DNA from: Candidatus Bipolaricaulota bacterium | GTDB taxonomy: Bacteria; Bipolaricaulota; Bipolaricaulia; UBA7950; UBA9294 | Reading direction: 5' to 3' | Assembly: GCA_030603215.1 (NCBI GenBank) | Contig: JAUVYF010000003.1 | Coordinates: forward strand, 1-49,167 | DNA length: 49,167 nt | Part shown: positions 17,296-22,889 of the stretch, in pieces | Position numbering within the stretch: position 1 is the stretch's first letter | Layout of the letters: each line of letters starts with the position of its first letter | The notes under the pieces: model-generated | Database searches by the model: none | Seen by the model: only the letters and a program-made list of their open reading frames with translations | Told to the model about the DNA's origin: nothing | Made by a program: the position numbers and the translations under genes

Positions 17296-17499
17296 ATGAA
17301 AGGTTACTTTGCAATCCTCGCATCAATTCCCGGTTTCTTCCTGAGCTCGTTCTTTCTCATGCTCTTCTCGAGAGTGATCGCGCCACAGTTCAATCAGGAT
17401 CCGTTAAACTATTACATGGCAATGCTGATCAATATCGCCCTGTGGATTGCAGTTGCGCCGCTTGCTGCGGCGCGGCGCGGGAGGAAAGACAAGGACTAG
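17296..17499 (+). CDS. Hypothetical 67-aa membrane protein
   Basis: AGGAGGTACAGC-ATG; two hydrophobic segments; own promoter. Confidence 0.65.
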   Translation: MKGYFAILASIPGFFLSSFFLMLFSRVIAPQFNQDPLNYYMAMLINIALWIAVAPLAAARRGRKDKD

Positions 17500-17601
17500 C
17501 ATACAGGTTGGGCTAACAACACATAGCTATCGCCTAAGTATTCTTCTCCATCTTGTTTGTAAGCCAACTTATGCTCATCTTGCATGGGACAAGTCTTCCC
17601 C

Positions 17602-17630
17602 TTGACAACCTTGTAGGTTCATGTTAATCT
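17602..17630 (+). promoter_or_regulatory. Sigma70-like promoter upstream of the livK leader
   Basis: TTGACA-N17-TAATCT; predicted TSS only a few nt before the leader ATG. Confidence 0.45.
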
Positions 17631-17640
17631 CAAGGCTATC

Positions 17641-17724
17641 ATGCTTGAAGCTAAAGGGTACCAAGAGAAGACCAAGAATGTAGTTACCGGTTCCCTTTGG
17701 TTTGCTTATTATATTTGGTTGTAG
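17641..17724 (+). CDS. Candidate attenuation leader peptide for livK (27 aa)
   Basis: MLEAKGYQEKTKNVVTGSLWFAYYIWL*; hydrophobic/aromatic C-terminus, followed by stem-loops and an intrinsic terminator before livK; C-terminus similar to the livG leader. Confidence 0.65.
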   Translation: MLEAKGYQEKTKNVVTGSLWFAYYIWL

Positions 17725-17725
17725 C

Positions 17726-17777
17726 CGCCTTGTAAGAGCTCACCCAATTAATCACAGGTAAAGCTCAAAACAAGGCG
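17726..17777 (+). promoter_or_regulatory. Leader RNA stem-loop between leader peptide and terminator
   Basis: CGCCTTGT...ACAAGGCG (8 bp) enclosing GAGCT...AGCTC (5 bp). Confidence 0.65.
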
Positions 17778-17784
17778 AACAAGA

Positions 17785-17817
17785 GACTACGGGTAATTCC
17801 GTGGTCTTATTTTTTTC
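17785..17817 (+). terminator. Intrinsic terminator/attenuator upstream of livK
   Basis: GACTACGG-GTAATT-CCGTGGTC followed by TTATTTTTTTC. Confidence 0.75.
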
Positions 17818-17905
17818 AGGGCTTTCCACTAGGTCAAGAAAGGAGGTGAAAACTTTTTGGCGAGCAGGAACTAGAAGAACGATCAACTATCTAAAGGAGT
17901 CTACT

Positions 17906-19120
17906 ATGAAACGAATCTTTATTCTGTTATTAGCGGTTGGGTTGATTGTGACACTGACAGTAAGCGCGACGGGAGCAGAGACGATAAAAATCGGCGCCTT
18001 GATGTCTTTAACTGGAGGACTAGGACCCTACGGCCCGTCAATTCTGGACGGCGCTCAAATGGCTGTTGATATGATCAACGCCGCAGGAGGGGTATTGGGT
18101 AAGCAGTTGGAGCTGGTCGTGCGAGATACGGCGACATCGCCCGATGTTGGTCGTGATGCTGCCAGCAAGCTCGTGGAACTTGATAGGGTACCAGCAATTG
18201 TAGGAGCTCTTTCTAGCGGCGTTACCCTTGCAGCGTCGAGTGTAACCATTCCCGCTGAGGTGGTCCTGATTTCACCCGCCTCGACCGCGCCTTCCATACC
18301 AGCGTTGGATGACGACGACTACGTGTTCAGAACGGTTGTATCGGACGCGGTGCAAGGGGTAGTGCTCGGTCGACTGGCAGTAATCCTCAACTATAAGCGC
18401 GTCTCCGTAACATACGTCAATAACGACTACGGTAAGGGCTTGGCGGAGACTTTCAAGAGTACCTTTGAGAGCCTTGGTGGCCAGGTGCTAACGATGGTCG
18501 CCTATGAGGAAAACAAGCCGTCCTATCGTGGTGAAGTGGATAATCTCCTATCCAAGGATCCCCAGGCGATCGTCATGGTCAGCTATCCGGTGGATGGGAA
18601 CAAGCAGATCGTAGAAGCGGTTGAAGCTGGATACCAGGGCGATTTCTTGATGACAGACGGAATGAAAGGCGAGGGCGTGTCTCCCGGCCCGGCCTGTTTA
18701 TCCGCAGAAGAACCCGGGCCCCTGGAAGGATCATACGGCACGGTGGCATCCGGCGGTTTCAAAGCCGCTCAGTTCGAAGCCGCTTATGACGCAGGAGGGT
18801 ATGGCCCAAGTACGATTCCTTACTACGATAAGGCATACGATGCGGTGACGTTGATCGCGCTCGCTATGGTCAGAGCGGGAGAAGCAACAGGACCAGCGAT
18901 CCGCGACAACCTGCGGGCAGTTGCCGGCCCACCTGGAGAGGTGGTCTTCTTCGACGAATGGGAGAAGGCCGTTGCGCTCTTGCAACAAGGAAAGGAGATC
19001 AACTACGAAGGTGCTGCTGGATCGGTTGATTTTAAGGATACCGGAGATGTAGAAGGGAACATCGAGATCTGGAAGATCGAGGGATGCCAGGTTATCAAAG
19101 TCATGATCGTTCCCGGCTAA
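17906..19120 (+). CDS. livK: ABC transporter substrate-binding protein, LIV/HAAT (periplasmic-binding type I) family
   Basis: Signal peptide 'MKRIFILLLAVGLIVTLTVSATGAETIKIGALMSLTGGLGPYGPSILDGAQMAVDMINAAGGVLGKQLELVVRDTATSPDVG'; AAAGGAG SD. Confidence 0.9.
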   Translation: MKRIFILLLAVGLIVTLTVSATGAETIKIGALMSLTGGLGPYGPSILDGAQMAVDMINAAGGVLGKQLELVVRDTATSPDVGRDAASKLVELDRVPAIVGALSSGVTLAASSVTIPAEVVLISPASTAPSIPALDDDDYVFRTVVSDAVQGVVLGRLAVILNYKRVSVTYVNNDYGKGLAETFKSTFESLGGQVLTMVAYEENKPSYRGEVDNLLSKDPQAIVMVSYPVDGNKQIVEAVEAGYQGDFLMTDGMKGEGVSPGPACLSAEEPGPLEGSYGTVASGGFKAAQFEAAYDAGGYGPSTIPYYDKAYDAVTLIALAMVRAGEATGPAIRDNLRAVAGPPGEVVFFDEWEKAVALLQQGKEINYEGAAGSVDFKDTGDVEGNIEIWKIEGCQVIKVMIVPG

Positions 19121-19305: not shown

Positions 19306-20325
19306 CTATGGCGTTTTTGAAGGTTTGCGTTCGCGTTGCAGCAGCCCCTGTGGTCGCCAGAGGAGGATCACTTCCAACAGTACTCCGATGATGATAATGC
19401 GGAGCGAGGCGGCCTGAGTGGCGGAGAAGGGAAAGTATTCTGTCAGAAAATCGGTCCCTGCCCAGATTCCCCATACGACAAAGCTCCCCAGAATAGCCCC
19501 CCTGTTGTTCCCGCTTCCTCCTAAGATCAACATCACCCATACGAGAAAGGTTCCGTAGAGAGGCTTGAACGAGGCGGGCGAGATGAAGCGAGCATAGTAC
19601 GCATATACGCCGCCACCGATCCCCATGATCATCGCCCCCAGCACGAGCGCCTGTAGCTTAAAGGAGAAGGTGTTCTTGCCGGACATCGCAACGGCATCCT
19701 CATCCTCGCGGATCGCCTTTAACACGCGTCCCCAAGGGGAGTGCACGAGTCGTTCTACAATGAGATAGAGGACAAAAAGAATGGCAAGAACCAAAAAGAG
19801 ATAAAACCAGTTATATGCTTTGGAAAACAGGCCATGTATCCATCCCTGTAAATCAGGGTGATTGCCCAAGAATGCCTTAACTCCTCCGTGGATCGGATCA
19901 TAGAACGGTGAAGGGATTTGCTGAAGCCCCCACACGCCGTTTGTAAGCCAGGACTCGTTCTTTAGCACTAATCTAATCGTCTCCGCGATCCCAATCGTGG
20001 CGATCGCGAGATAATCCGATCTGAGACGCAGAGTGGGAATGCCAATTAGGAAAGCGACAATTCCGCAAACAACGGCTGCAGCCAGCAATCCAGCGAGAAA
20101 AGGCAGCTCAAATCCCCCAAAAATCCGACCGTCCCATGCGCTTGGTGGTGGACCGGAGACCAGGGCTGCGGCATAAGCTCCTAATGCGTAGAAGCCGGCG
20201 ATTCCAATATTGAACAGGCCAGTATACCCCCACTGAATGTTAAGCCCAAGTGCAAGAATTCCATAAGTACCTGCGGTGATGGCAAAGAAGACAACGTAAT
20301 TGATGATTCCAATTAGTGTATCCAT
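19306..20325 (-). CDS. livM: Branched-chain/hydrophobic amino acid ABC transporter permease LivM
   Basis: 'GLNIQWGYTGLFNIGIAGFYALGAY', 'LRLRSDYLAIATIGIAETIRLVLKNE', 'PWGRVLKAIREDEDAVAMSGKN'. Confidence 0.93.
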   Translation of the reverse strand: MDTLIGIINYVVFFAITAGTYGILALGLNIQWGYTGLFNIGIAGFYALGAYAAALVSGPPPSAWDGRIFGGFELPFLAGLLAAAVVCGIVAFLIGIPTLRLRSDYLAIATIGIAETIRLVLKNESWLTNGVWGLQQIPSPFYDPIHGGVKAFLGNHPDLQGWIHGLFSKAYNWFYLFLVLAILFVLYLIVERLVHSPWGRVLKAIREDEDAVAMSGKNTFSFKLQALVLGAMIMGIGGGVYAYYARFISPASFKPLYGTFLVWVMLILGGSGNNRGAILGSFVVWGIWAGTDFLTEYFPFSATQAASLRIIIIGVLLEVILLWRPQGLLQRERKPSKTP

Positions 20326-21248
20326 TATCGCCTCTTCCCCAGCAATCCGGTTGGCTTCACTATCAGCATGAGAATCATGATGATGAAGGCCACCGCCGGT
20401 TTATAGCCCGTGGGGATGAACGCGGTCGAAACTTCTTCGGTGATCCCTATCACCATCCCTCCGACGATCGCCCCGTACGGGTTGCCGATTCCGCCCAGGA
20501 CTACCGCCGCGAAGATCGATAGGAGCATCTGCCACCCCAATTCCGGAGTGATGAACTTGTTCTCGATCCCCGCCAGAATGCCGGCGGTCGCTGCCAGCGC
20601 TCCCCCAATTACCCAGGTCCACACGATCACCCGGTTGGTATTGATCCCTGTAACGCGGGCAAGCGCGTTGTTATCCGCTGTCGCCCGCATCGCCTTCCCC
20701 ATCTTGGTGTATTTGAGAAATGCATGTACTAACACGACGAGCACGATGGTTACGAGAATGATAAATACCTGATCGGGCTTGATCCTTATTCCCAGCCCTG
20801 GAATTACGCTCGCTATTTGGATCCTTTCTATGTAGTAGTGTGGCTGGGGGCCCCAGAAAAACTGGAGGATGTTCCTCAATGCCAGCGCGACCCCAATCGA
20901 AGACATCATCAGGATGACCGACGAATGGTTACGCAACCGGTTGAAGAGTATGCGGTCGATCAAGACTACCGCCACGGCTGTCAGCCCTATTGCAAAGATA
21001 GCGGCTAGGATGAACCCAAAGCCGAACGAGAGAGGTCCTAAGGGTGTGTTGGGAATACTCCAGGAGACGAATAGGCTGAATAGCCCGAGAGCGATGTAGG
21101 CTCCGAGTGCCATCATGTCTCCGTAGGCAAAGTTGGAGAAGCCAATAATGCTGTAGATGAGAGAGACACCGATCCCTCCCAGGGAAAGGATGCTCCCCGA
21201 GATGACGCCGTATACGAGCAACTGTGGAATTCTTGATAGTATGTCCAT
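20325..21248 (-). CDS. livH: Branched-chain/hydrophobic amino acid ABC transporter permease LivH
   Basis: 'GISGSILSLGGIGVSLIYSIIGFSNFAYGDMMALGAY'-like N-terminus, 'MGKAMRATADNNALARVTGINTNRVI', 'AAVVLGGIGNPYGAIVGGMVIG'. Confidence 0.93.
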   Translation of the reverse strand: MDILSRIPQLLVYGVISGSILSLGGIGVSLIYSIIGFSNFAYGDMMALGAYIALGLFSLFVSWSIPNTPLGPLSFGFGFILAAIFAIGLTAVAVVLIDRILFNRLRNHSSVILMMSSIGVALALRNILQFFWGPQPHYYIERIQIASVIPGLGIRIKPDQVFIILVTIVLVVLVHAFLKYTKMGKAMRATADNNALARVTGINTNRVIVWTWVIGGALAATAGILAGIENKFITPELGWQMLLSIFAAVVLGGIGNPYGAIVGGMVIGITEEVSTAFIPTGYKPAVAFIIMILMLIVKPTGLLGKRR

Positions 21249-21257
21249 TTATTCTCC

Positions 21258-21962
21258 CTACCCACCGAGGTAGAGCTGTCCCACATCCTGGTTGGCTAAT
21301 AGGTCTTCACCTGTATCTTCGAAGCGGTTTCGACCACTGGCTAAGACGTAGCCGCGGTCGGATACCTTCAAGGACTCCTTGGCGTTCTGCTCCACTATGA
21401 GGATCGCTACACCACTCGCGTTGATGGCGACAATCCGCTCGAAGATCGTCGCTGCCAGATTCGGAGCCAGGGCAGCGGAGGGCTCGTCCAACATCAGTAG
21501 CTTCGGATCGAGCATCAACGCCCGTCCCATCGCCACCATCTGTCGTTCACCTCCGCTCATCTTCCCCACGCGCTGCTTTCGACGGTCGTTTAAAATTGGA
21601 AAGAGCTCATAGATCTCCTCTAGCTGTCCACTGAAGTCATCGGTGAGGATGAACGCCCCCATCTCCAGGTTCTCATTCACGGTGAGCGAGGGGAAGATAT
21701 TCTCCACTTGGGGCACGTATGCCATGCCCCGCCGCACGACCAGGTCAGGGGAAAGCCCTGTAATCTCCTCTTCCGCGAAGATGATCTGTCCCGCGGTCGG
21801 TGTGAGCAGGCCGAAGATCGTCTTCATCAGGGTCGATTTGCCGGCTCCATTAGGGCCGATCACCGTGACAATCTTGGCAGCCCCCACTTCGATGGAGACC
21901 CCATGAAGAATCTCCATGTCTCCATACCCGCTTGTGACCGCGTTAACTGTCAACAGCGACAT
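21258..21962 (-). CDS. livF: ABC transporter ATP-binding protein LivF
   Basis: 'VIGPNGAGKSTLMKTIFGLLTPTAGQI', 'MSGGERQMVAMGRALMLDPKLLMLDEPSAALAPNLA'. Confidence 0.93.
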   Translation of the reverse strand: MSLLTVNAVTSGYGDMEILHGVSIEVGAAKIVTVIGPNGAGKSTLMKTIFGLLTPTAGQIIFAEEEITGLSPDLVVRRGMAYVPQVENIFPSLTVNENLEMGAFILTDDFSGQLEEIYELFPILNDRRKQRVGKMSGGERQMVAMGRALMLDPKLLMLDEPSAALAPNLAATIFERIVAINASGVAILIVEQNAKESLKVSDRGYVLASGRNRFEDTGEDLLANQDVGQLYLGG

Positions 21963-22716
21963 ATTGACCCCCAAGGTAGGCGTCGAGCACCTCTTGTTTC
22001 TTCTGCACCTCCGTTGGTGTCCCCTCAGCAAGTTTCTGCCCTTCGCTCATCACGATCACTGGGTTGCACAGCTTCATCACGAAATCCATGTCGTGTTCGA
22101 TCAACAGGAAGGTCGTGTTCTTCTCCGTGCACAGGCGATAGATCGAATCGGCCAGACGTTTTAGGAGAGTGCGGTTCACTCCGGCACCAGGTTCATCGAG
22201 CAAGACTAGTTTGGGTTTGCCCATCATCGTTTTGGCCAATTCGAGTAGCTTCTTCTGCCCACCGGAGAGCCTTCCCGCGTACTCATCTTTAAGCTCCGTC
22301 AGTTCTAGAAATGCCAGGACCTCGTGTGCTCTCTCCCGGATCGCGTGCTCTTGCTTGCTCACCAGTCGACCGCGTAGGAAGGGATTCCAAATCCGTTCAC
22401 CAAGTTGTTCGGTCGGTACGAGCATCAGGTTCTCTACTACCGTCATCGCTTTCCACTCGCGCGGAATCTGGAAAGTCCTTGCGATCCCCTTTTGGAAGAC
22501 GCGATGTGGGGAGAGGCCGGTGATCTCCTCATCACAGAGGTAGACCGTCCCCTTGTCGGGACTGGAGAACCCAGTGAGAAGATTGAATACCGTCGTCTTT
22601 CCTGCCCCGTTCGGTCCGATCAACCCGGTAATCGTCCCCGGATTAACATTAAACGAACAACAATCCACCGCGCGCAGTCCTCCAAACCATTTTGAAAGAT
22701 TGTCAACCACAAGCAC
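21943..22716 (-). CDS. livG: ABC transporter ATP-binding protein LivG
   Basis: GTG start after AAGGAGG; 'LIGPNGAGKTTVFNLLTGFSSPDKGTV', 'LSGGQKKLLELAKTMMGKPKLVLLDEPGAGVNRTL'; overlaps livF by 20 nt. Confidence 0.92.
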   Translation of the reverse strand: MLVVDNLSKWFGGLRAVDCCSFNVNPGTITGLIGPNGAGKTTVFNLLTGFSSPDKGTVYLCDEEITGLSPHRVFQKGIARTFQIPREWKAMTVVENLMLVPTEQLGERIWNPFLRGRLVSKQEHAIRERAHEVLAFLELTELKDEYAGRLSGGQKKLLELAKTMMGKPKLVLLDEPGAGVNRTLLKRLADSIYRLCTEKNTTFLLIEHDMDFVMKLCNPVIVMSEGQKLAEGTPTEVQKKQEVLDAYLGGQYVAVDS

Positions 22717-22735
22717 ACTTTCCTCCTTACAGACA

Positions 22736-22769
22736 AACAAAAAACCGCAAGTCCTTAGACTTCCGGTTT
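22736..22769 (-). terminator. Intrinsic terminator/attenuator upstream of livG
   Basis: Minus strand AAACCG-G-AAGTC-TAAG-GACTT-G-CGGTTTTTTG: 6+5 bp stem with one G.G mismatch, 4-nt loop, U tract. Confidence 0.75.
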
Positions 22770-22808
22770 CCAGGCCCACTAGCAGTATGCAAGACACTGC
22801 CAGGCGAC

Positions 22809-22889
22809 CTACAACATCCAAATAAAGTAGTAATAAAGGGCGTTCTTAGCTGCTGTCACCTCCAATGTAGTAGCCTGAACTTGTATCAC
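22809..22889 (-). CDS. Candidate attenuation leader peptide for livGFHM (26 aa)
   Basis: GTG start, AGGAGG SD 5 nt upstream: (M)IQVQATTLEVTAAKNALYYYFIWML*; lies between a sigma70-like promoter and an intrinsic terminator. Confidence 0.72.
   Translation of the reverse strand: MIQVQATTLEVTAAKNALYYYFIWML

Follow-up and report, generated by a model that had tools for sequence, protein, structure and literature searches.

The trp, thr, his, phe and leu leaders of Escherichia coli carry a short upstream reading frame (uORF) whose control codons match the operon's amino acid, followed by an intrinsic terminator. In attenuators of the trp type, stalling of the ribosome frees a segment that sequesters the 5′ arm of the terminator. 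The nearest described case to the leader studied here is the leaderless ilvBNC leader of Corynebacterium glutamicum, in which the start site lies one nucleotide from the start codon of the uORF and for which an antiterminator overlapping the terminator by three nucleotides has been proposed and mutants have been tested (PMC11857589). In the ilvB1 leader of Mycobacterium tuberculosis, an antiterminator forms while the ribosome is stalled and is blocked when the ribosome is at the stop codon (PMC13236596), and leaderless mycobacterial polycysteine uORFs, which contain runs of Cys codons, are described as acting by translational attenuation (Canestrari 2020, as far as that work is represented in PMC13236596).

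The livK leader analyzed here lies in a window of 49,167 nucleotides (the whole stretch of DNA that was analyzed) from an uncultured Candidatus Bipolaricaulota metagenome-assembled genome of 1.74 Mb, and its predicted elements are an apparently leaderless uORF, the hairpins P1 and P2, and an intrinsic terminator, T (Table 1). It resembles the E. coli leaders in its cognate-codon uORF followed by a terminator and differs in having an apparently leaderless uORF whose start is covered or overlapped by P1. With ilvBNC it shares a first hairpin shielding the initiation site, the count of three hairpins and the terminator, and its uORF, judged by predicted start sites, appears leaderless as that one is; here, however, no antiterminator was detected, the phylum and gene set are others, and one design serves many amino-acid genes. 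The ilvB1 leader likewise has regulatory codons (LVVI), and stalled and stop-codon ribosomes have opposite effects ahead of T; P2 would go with starvation, like the ilvB1 antiterminator, but it shares no detectable bases with T, whereas the ilvB1 hairpins are mutually exclusive. We consider it very probable that the livK leader is a ribosome-sensing leader-peptide transcription attenuator with an apparently leaderless uORF, a reading made without expression, transcription start site, ribosome profiling or probing data, and that confidence covers the identity of the attenuator, not the physical step by which T is suppressed. We file it provisionally as a leader-peptide attenuator outside the classical trp subtype, since neither an antiterminator nor control codons inside a hairpin were found. 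Sequence comparison supports the uORF, its cognate codons, P1, P2 and T, the fixed spacing, and the lack of a detectable alternative pairing of T; it is inferred that ribosomes translate the uORF starting at the transcript's 5′ end, that stalling and read-through follow under starvation, and that T is suppressed, as is the manner of that suppression. The leader probably decides whether livK is transcribed.

Table 1. Predicted features of the livK leader and its gene, in window positions
Feature	Position	Strand	Description	Basis or remark
Predicted sigma-70 promoter	17602-17630	+	TTGACA (17602-17607), 17-nt spacer, TAATCT (17625-17630)	Sequence; 19 livK loci; 60 leaders
Putative leaderless uORF	17641-17724	+	MLEAKGYQEKTKNVVTGSLWFAYYIWL, 27 codons; ATG at 17641, 10 nt past the -10 hexamer	TAG stop at 17722-17724
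Hairpin P1	17648-17703	+	Within the uORF; arms AAAGGGTACC/GGTTCCCTTT	Covariation; arm complementarity z -2.2 over 54 leaders
Control codons	17707-17721	+	Tyr-Tyr-Ile-Trp-Leu	Ile-Trp-Leu in register with Thr/Met/Trp triplets of other leaders
Hairpin P2	17726-17777	+	Two-part, CGCCTTGT..ACAAGGCG, inner GAGCT/AGCTC	
Intrinsic terminator T	17783-17816	+	GAGACTACGGG-TAAT-TCCGTGGTCTT + ATTTTTTT	Hairpin 17783-17808, then U-run ATTTTTTT
16S-complementary stretch	17841-17849	+	AGGAGGTGA, complementary to the 16S 3′ end; not the livK Shine-Dalgarno sequence	Role unexplained
livK	17906-19120	+	LivK-type (HAAT) amino-acid binding protein, 404 aa; ATG at 17906, Shine-Dalgarno AAAGGAG at 17893-17899	Pfam, NCBIfam, PDB

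An earlier note on this DNA, made from its letters alone, had proposed a TTGACA-N17-TAATCT promoter, a leader ATG and three stem-loops, the last of them a terminator, and all of these are present in the sequence where it put them. The -10 hexamer, with three of six matches to TATAAT, is weak when taken alone, which is why a promoter scan did not report this promoter; we keep it because the orthologues, with -10 hexamers of TATGCT or TATAGT at the same spacing, support it. The uORF ATG roughly coincides with the predicted transcription start, and T, with an 11-bp stem and a U-run, is sited between the uORF and livK, no second terminator-like site being seen in 17300-18100. The livK product matches Pfam Peripla_BP_6 (E 3e-47) and Leu/Ile/Val-binding proteins in the PDB, and it also matches the NCBIfam LivK-like family at 2e-30, which is under that family's cut-off. 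Genes for a liv-type permease and ATPase run convergent to livK on the minus strand (19306-22821), and because they are on the opposite strand the leader probably controls livK alone. The RNA is structured, as the note had suggested: the minimum free energy of the 271-nt leader is -76.2 kcal/mol, against -64.7 ± 5.2 kcal/mol in shuffles (z -2.2). Nor did Rfam contradict the absence of T-box and ykkC motifs that the note had reported, the leader having no match at gathering scores (two tRNAs elsewhere in the window were the only matches) and the T-box covariance model none anywhere in the window at its gathering score. The note had held that an Rfam hit to a known riboswitch, or stems lacking covariation, would refute a new element; the first is absent and, as set out below, the stems do covary.

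Across orthologues, what is conserved in the predicted leader is its architecture and not its sequence. We collected 19 livK loci of the host family by protein homology, without using T, and every one has an upstream TTGACN promoter, a uORF ATG at a distance of 38-40 nt, counted from the first nucleotide of the -35 element, and P1, P2 and a terminator in the same arrangement as in the window; their uORFs are 23-36 codons long and their terminators have the core GACTRC...GYGGTC or something close to it. P1, which in many relatives also pairs the start codon, and P2 are almost wholly different in sequence between genera, with pairing kept. RNAalifold retains P1 and T, in which 14 of the 21 consensus pairs carry compensatory changes on both sides. 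P2 is poorly aligned by MAFFT and was tested per sequence: over 41 related leaders it averages -28.1 kcal/mol, against -14.1 kcal/mol for shuffles, and its arm-to-arm complementarity has a z of -4.0, a value inflated by the choice of the best hairpin, which the shuffle energy test makes in the shuffles as well. Orthologues, covariation and shuffles together rule out chance hairpins, with the reservation that related genomes are non-independent samples. The constant distance between promoter and ATG supports the suggestion that the peptide might be leaderless; in the 60 leaders with a promoter score of at least 8 of 12 the ATG lies 35-40 nt from the start of the -35 element, or at about +1 to +5, the start sites themselves being only predicted.

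The window leader appears to be one member of an amino-acid gene regulon. The T pattern has 39 matches in 33 genomes of the family and its reversal none, and a covariance model trained on livK leaders (R1) has matches in 28 of these 33 genomes; we analyzed 64 leaders in the host family and one in a sister family, the window genome itself having a single detectable copy, which is a point against the attenuator identity. The genes behind these leaders, whose identities are backed by Pfam/NCBIfam, encode LivK-type and TrpX-type binding proteins, homoserine dehydrogenase, aspartokinase, prephenate dehydratase, chorismate mutase AroH, Cys/Met PLP enzymes, glutamine synthetase, an NAD-dependent epimerase and a few unknowns. 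A search of 100 Bipolaricaulota genomes with R1 found no element outside two families (f1 and f2), and this model, trained on livK, misses the TrpX leader type of a further family described below. Since R1 includes T, the leader set is biased toward similar terminators, and the conservation of T is overstated for the non-livK leaders. Inspection by eye of the sister-family genome (G034) found a uORF ending in ...SSSFFWFITGFPVRV ahead of chorismate-mutase and prephenate-dehydratase-like genes. At one locus (L174, G017:C37:74780-74937) a livK-type leader is followed by an apparent decayed livK start and then by an aminotransferase-like gene.

The comparative data indicate that the uORF peptide is the putative sensor of amino-acid supply, so that, of the earlier note's idea of the hairpins as a possible new element, the structural part stands and the treatment of the peptide as a side issue does not. 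The control codons are TTT or TTTT before homoserine dehydrogenase, MMM before the Cys/Met enzymes and one LivK subgroup, WYW or YWF before TrpX, and YYYF or FFFYF before prephenate dehydratase and chorismate mutase, with FYWYYYF also occurring before prephenate dehydratase. In the 29 leaders of the five classes with a clear expectation there are 80 cognate codons, against 34.1 ± 6.0 with permuted labels (0 of 20000 permutations reach 80; p ≤ 5e-5), and this match was not built in, because the model was trained on livK leaders only. Across the same stretch, one alternative frame is fully open in only 2 of 63 leaders and the other in only 23. The LivK leaders themselves have mixed codons (L/I/V/F/M/Y/W) with hydrophobic register triplets, not a run for a single amino acid, and this counts against the attenuator identity. 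In the window, the Ile-Trp-Leu register after Tyr-Tyr predicts a transporter of hydrophobic amino acids, consistent with the LivK-type family.

The placement of P2 is as constrained as its sequence is free. The linker from the control run to P2 measures 5.5 ± 3.3 nt (shuffle sd 8.3) and that from P2 to the T core 5.0 ± 1.9 nt (shuffle sd 6.7), with a P2 length that varies (48.5 ± 9.0 nt); in the window, P2 starts 4 nt past the last sense codon and ends 5 nt ahead of T. The front edge of a ribosome lies about 12-15 nt beyond the A-site codon, and a ribosome stalled on the control codons would therefore abut P2 and leave it nearly whole, whereas one at the stop codon, which is at the foot of the P2 5′ arm or inside it, would break P2. 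The distance from control codons to T is 44-74 nt in the leaders analyzed here and 56-84 nt in E. coli, but the hairpin preceding T is placed differently: the E. coli one begins 15-26 nt ahead of the point where the control run ends and is thus broken by a stalled ribosome, and the one here begins about 5 nt past that point. The classical arrangement, in which this hairpin holds the control codons in its 5′ arm, is thus absent.

The second missing feature is the antiterminator, and the design seems, as far as pairing can be predicted, to lack a competing antiterminator fold. When all leader parts were compared pairwise in 54 leaders (a few P2 calls merged with P1, with P2 starts at ≤60-62, were excluded from the complementarity tests), complementarity was confined to the arms of P1, P2 and T, the remaining pairs of parts having mean z values of -0.22 to +0.39. 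The free segment shows no complementarity to either arm of T (mean z +0.17 for T5′, 0.0 for T3′), whereas in E. coli the freed segment is complementary to the terminator 5′ arm by a like test (thrL -5.2, leuL -1.5, trpL -1.6, hisL -1.4, pheL -3.2). Partition functions of truncated transcripts likewise gave T no alternative partner. Pairing of T with P1, the spacer, P2 or downstream sequence was considered in each case as an antiterminator, and none was found. This leaves the link between stalled ribosome and T unproved, which also counts against the attenuator identity.

A putative independent leader type has the same element order, similar spacing and, again, no detectable antiterminator. It precedes TrpX genes in family f4 of the same class (L233-L249, L250-L271) and was found by reading upstream regions. 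The uORFs are W-rich and apparently leaderless, with ends such as ...FYGYWFA and ...WYWFA before the stop codon; of 18 such leaders, most have P2 starting 9 nt past the final Trp codon, and nearly all have a gap of 4-5 nt between P2 and T. T has a different sequence (CCGCAAG/CTTGCGG), and the free segment has no complementarity to it (z +0.58 and +0.90).

On these data we propose the following sequence of events. Transcription would start at the uORF ATG or a few nucleotides before it, and a ribosome would load on the 5′ AUG before P1 folds over it. With Tyr, Ile, Trp and Leu aminoacyl-tRNAs plentiful, the ribosome would continue to the stop codon next to the base of P2 and leave; once it is gone, T would fold and transcription would end before livK. 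With these aminoacyl-tRNAs scarce, it would stall on the control codons, its front edge would come to lie against the base of P2, and T would be suppressed and livK transcribed; with no ribosome at all, P1 would fold and T would stop transcription. For the suppression of T we prefer a bridge, in which the intact P2 folds away the RNA between the stalled ribosome and T, so that the ribosome comes close to RNA polymerase and the T hairpin cannot fold. That a ribosome-RNA polymerase pair blocks the folding of T in this way is a tentative idea and may well be wrong. Equally doubtful, if conceivable, is its extension to a regulon-wide class of antiterminator-free attenuators, in which an arbitrary P2 of about 28-67 nt would serve as spacer or bridge, set about 5-9 nt past the control codons with about 5 nt left to the terminator, and the ribosome itself would block termination.

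Two other explanations of the same step are unlikely but remain in play. The leader could be a conventional trp-type attenuator whose antiterminator escaped detection because it consists of an overlap of a few nucleotides, a pseudoknot or non-canonical pairs. Every other trp-type part is present, the antiterminator and terminator of C. glutamicum ilvBNC share only three nucleotides (GCC 76-78; PMC11857589), and M. tuberculosis ilvB1 shows a P2-like logic (PMC13236596). Against this stand the pairwise comparisons of the 54 leaders, the free-segment score in contrast to those of the five E. coli leaders (-1.4 to -5.2), and the f4 TrpX scores; moreover, a nearly invariant T5′ beside freely varying P2 arms (means of 1.63 and 0.3 bits per position) is hard to square with competition for base pairs. 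That very conservation suggests the other explanation, which we likewise judge improbable: a dedicated antitermination protein that binds T at its conserved sequence, with the uORF feeding in. The 19 livK loci, collected without T, share the conserved T core as well, and the other terminators in the same loci (about 241 kb compared) lack the motif, apart from variant leader terminators; yet the model-based collection favors similar T hairpins, the f4 terminators differ in sequence within an equal architecture, and the cognate codons already provide a sensor. A metabolite riboswitch or T-box with an incidental uORF, for which only a structured leader with a terminator ahead of an amino-acid gene could be adduced, is very improbable given the lack of an Rfam match, of any visible ligand-binding core in the almost unconserved P1 and P2, and of any need in a riboswitch for uORF codons that change with the downstream gene.

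The missing antiterminator and the fixed spacing together pose a sharp and testable question, namely, how ribosome position controls termination. Our literature search, which was mostly without subscription papers, found no report of attenuation in Bipolaricaulota/Acetothermia, where leader-peptide attenuation would form a broad amino-acid regulon with apparently leaderless uORFs throughout. The uORF codons would also offer a readout of gene function, both for the amino acid bound by binding proteins and for uncharacterized genes. The LivK-type subgroup with MMM codons (L122, L123, L140 and L019) is predicted to transport methionine. A TTTT/TTT-type leader precedes a 162-aa protein without Pfam/NCBIfam match (L210:2412-2897, minus strand) and its apparent 161-aa relative (L180:590-1072, plus strand), for which a threonine-related role is predicted, and TT/TTT leaders in two genomes (L193 and L194), also read as Thr, stand ahead of short uncharacterized reading frames. 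An NAD-dependent epimerase-family gene behind an FTTTNMDLV uORF (L188:780-1724, minus strand) is possibly an L-threonine dehydrogenase, a guess from the codons.

A further conserved element lies downstream of T, where AGGAGGTGR is kept in most livK and TrpX leaders, and the window stretch (17841-17849) in nearly all livK leaders. Often no start codon follows it at the usual distance, and the Shine-Dalgarno sequence of the gene itself is a different one. We considered AAGGAGGTG after T as the Shine-Dalgarno sequence of a conserved second uORF and rejected this, since by eye neither frames nor stops are conserved among livK leaders. In f4, a AAGGAGGTGAT-like 16S-complementary stretch occurs inside most of the uORFs, ahead of the control codons.
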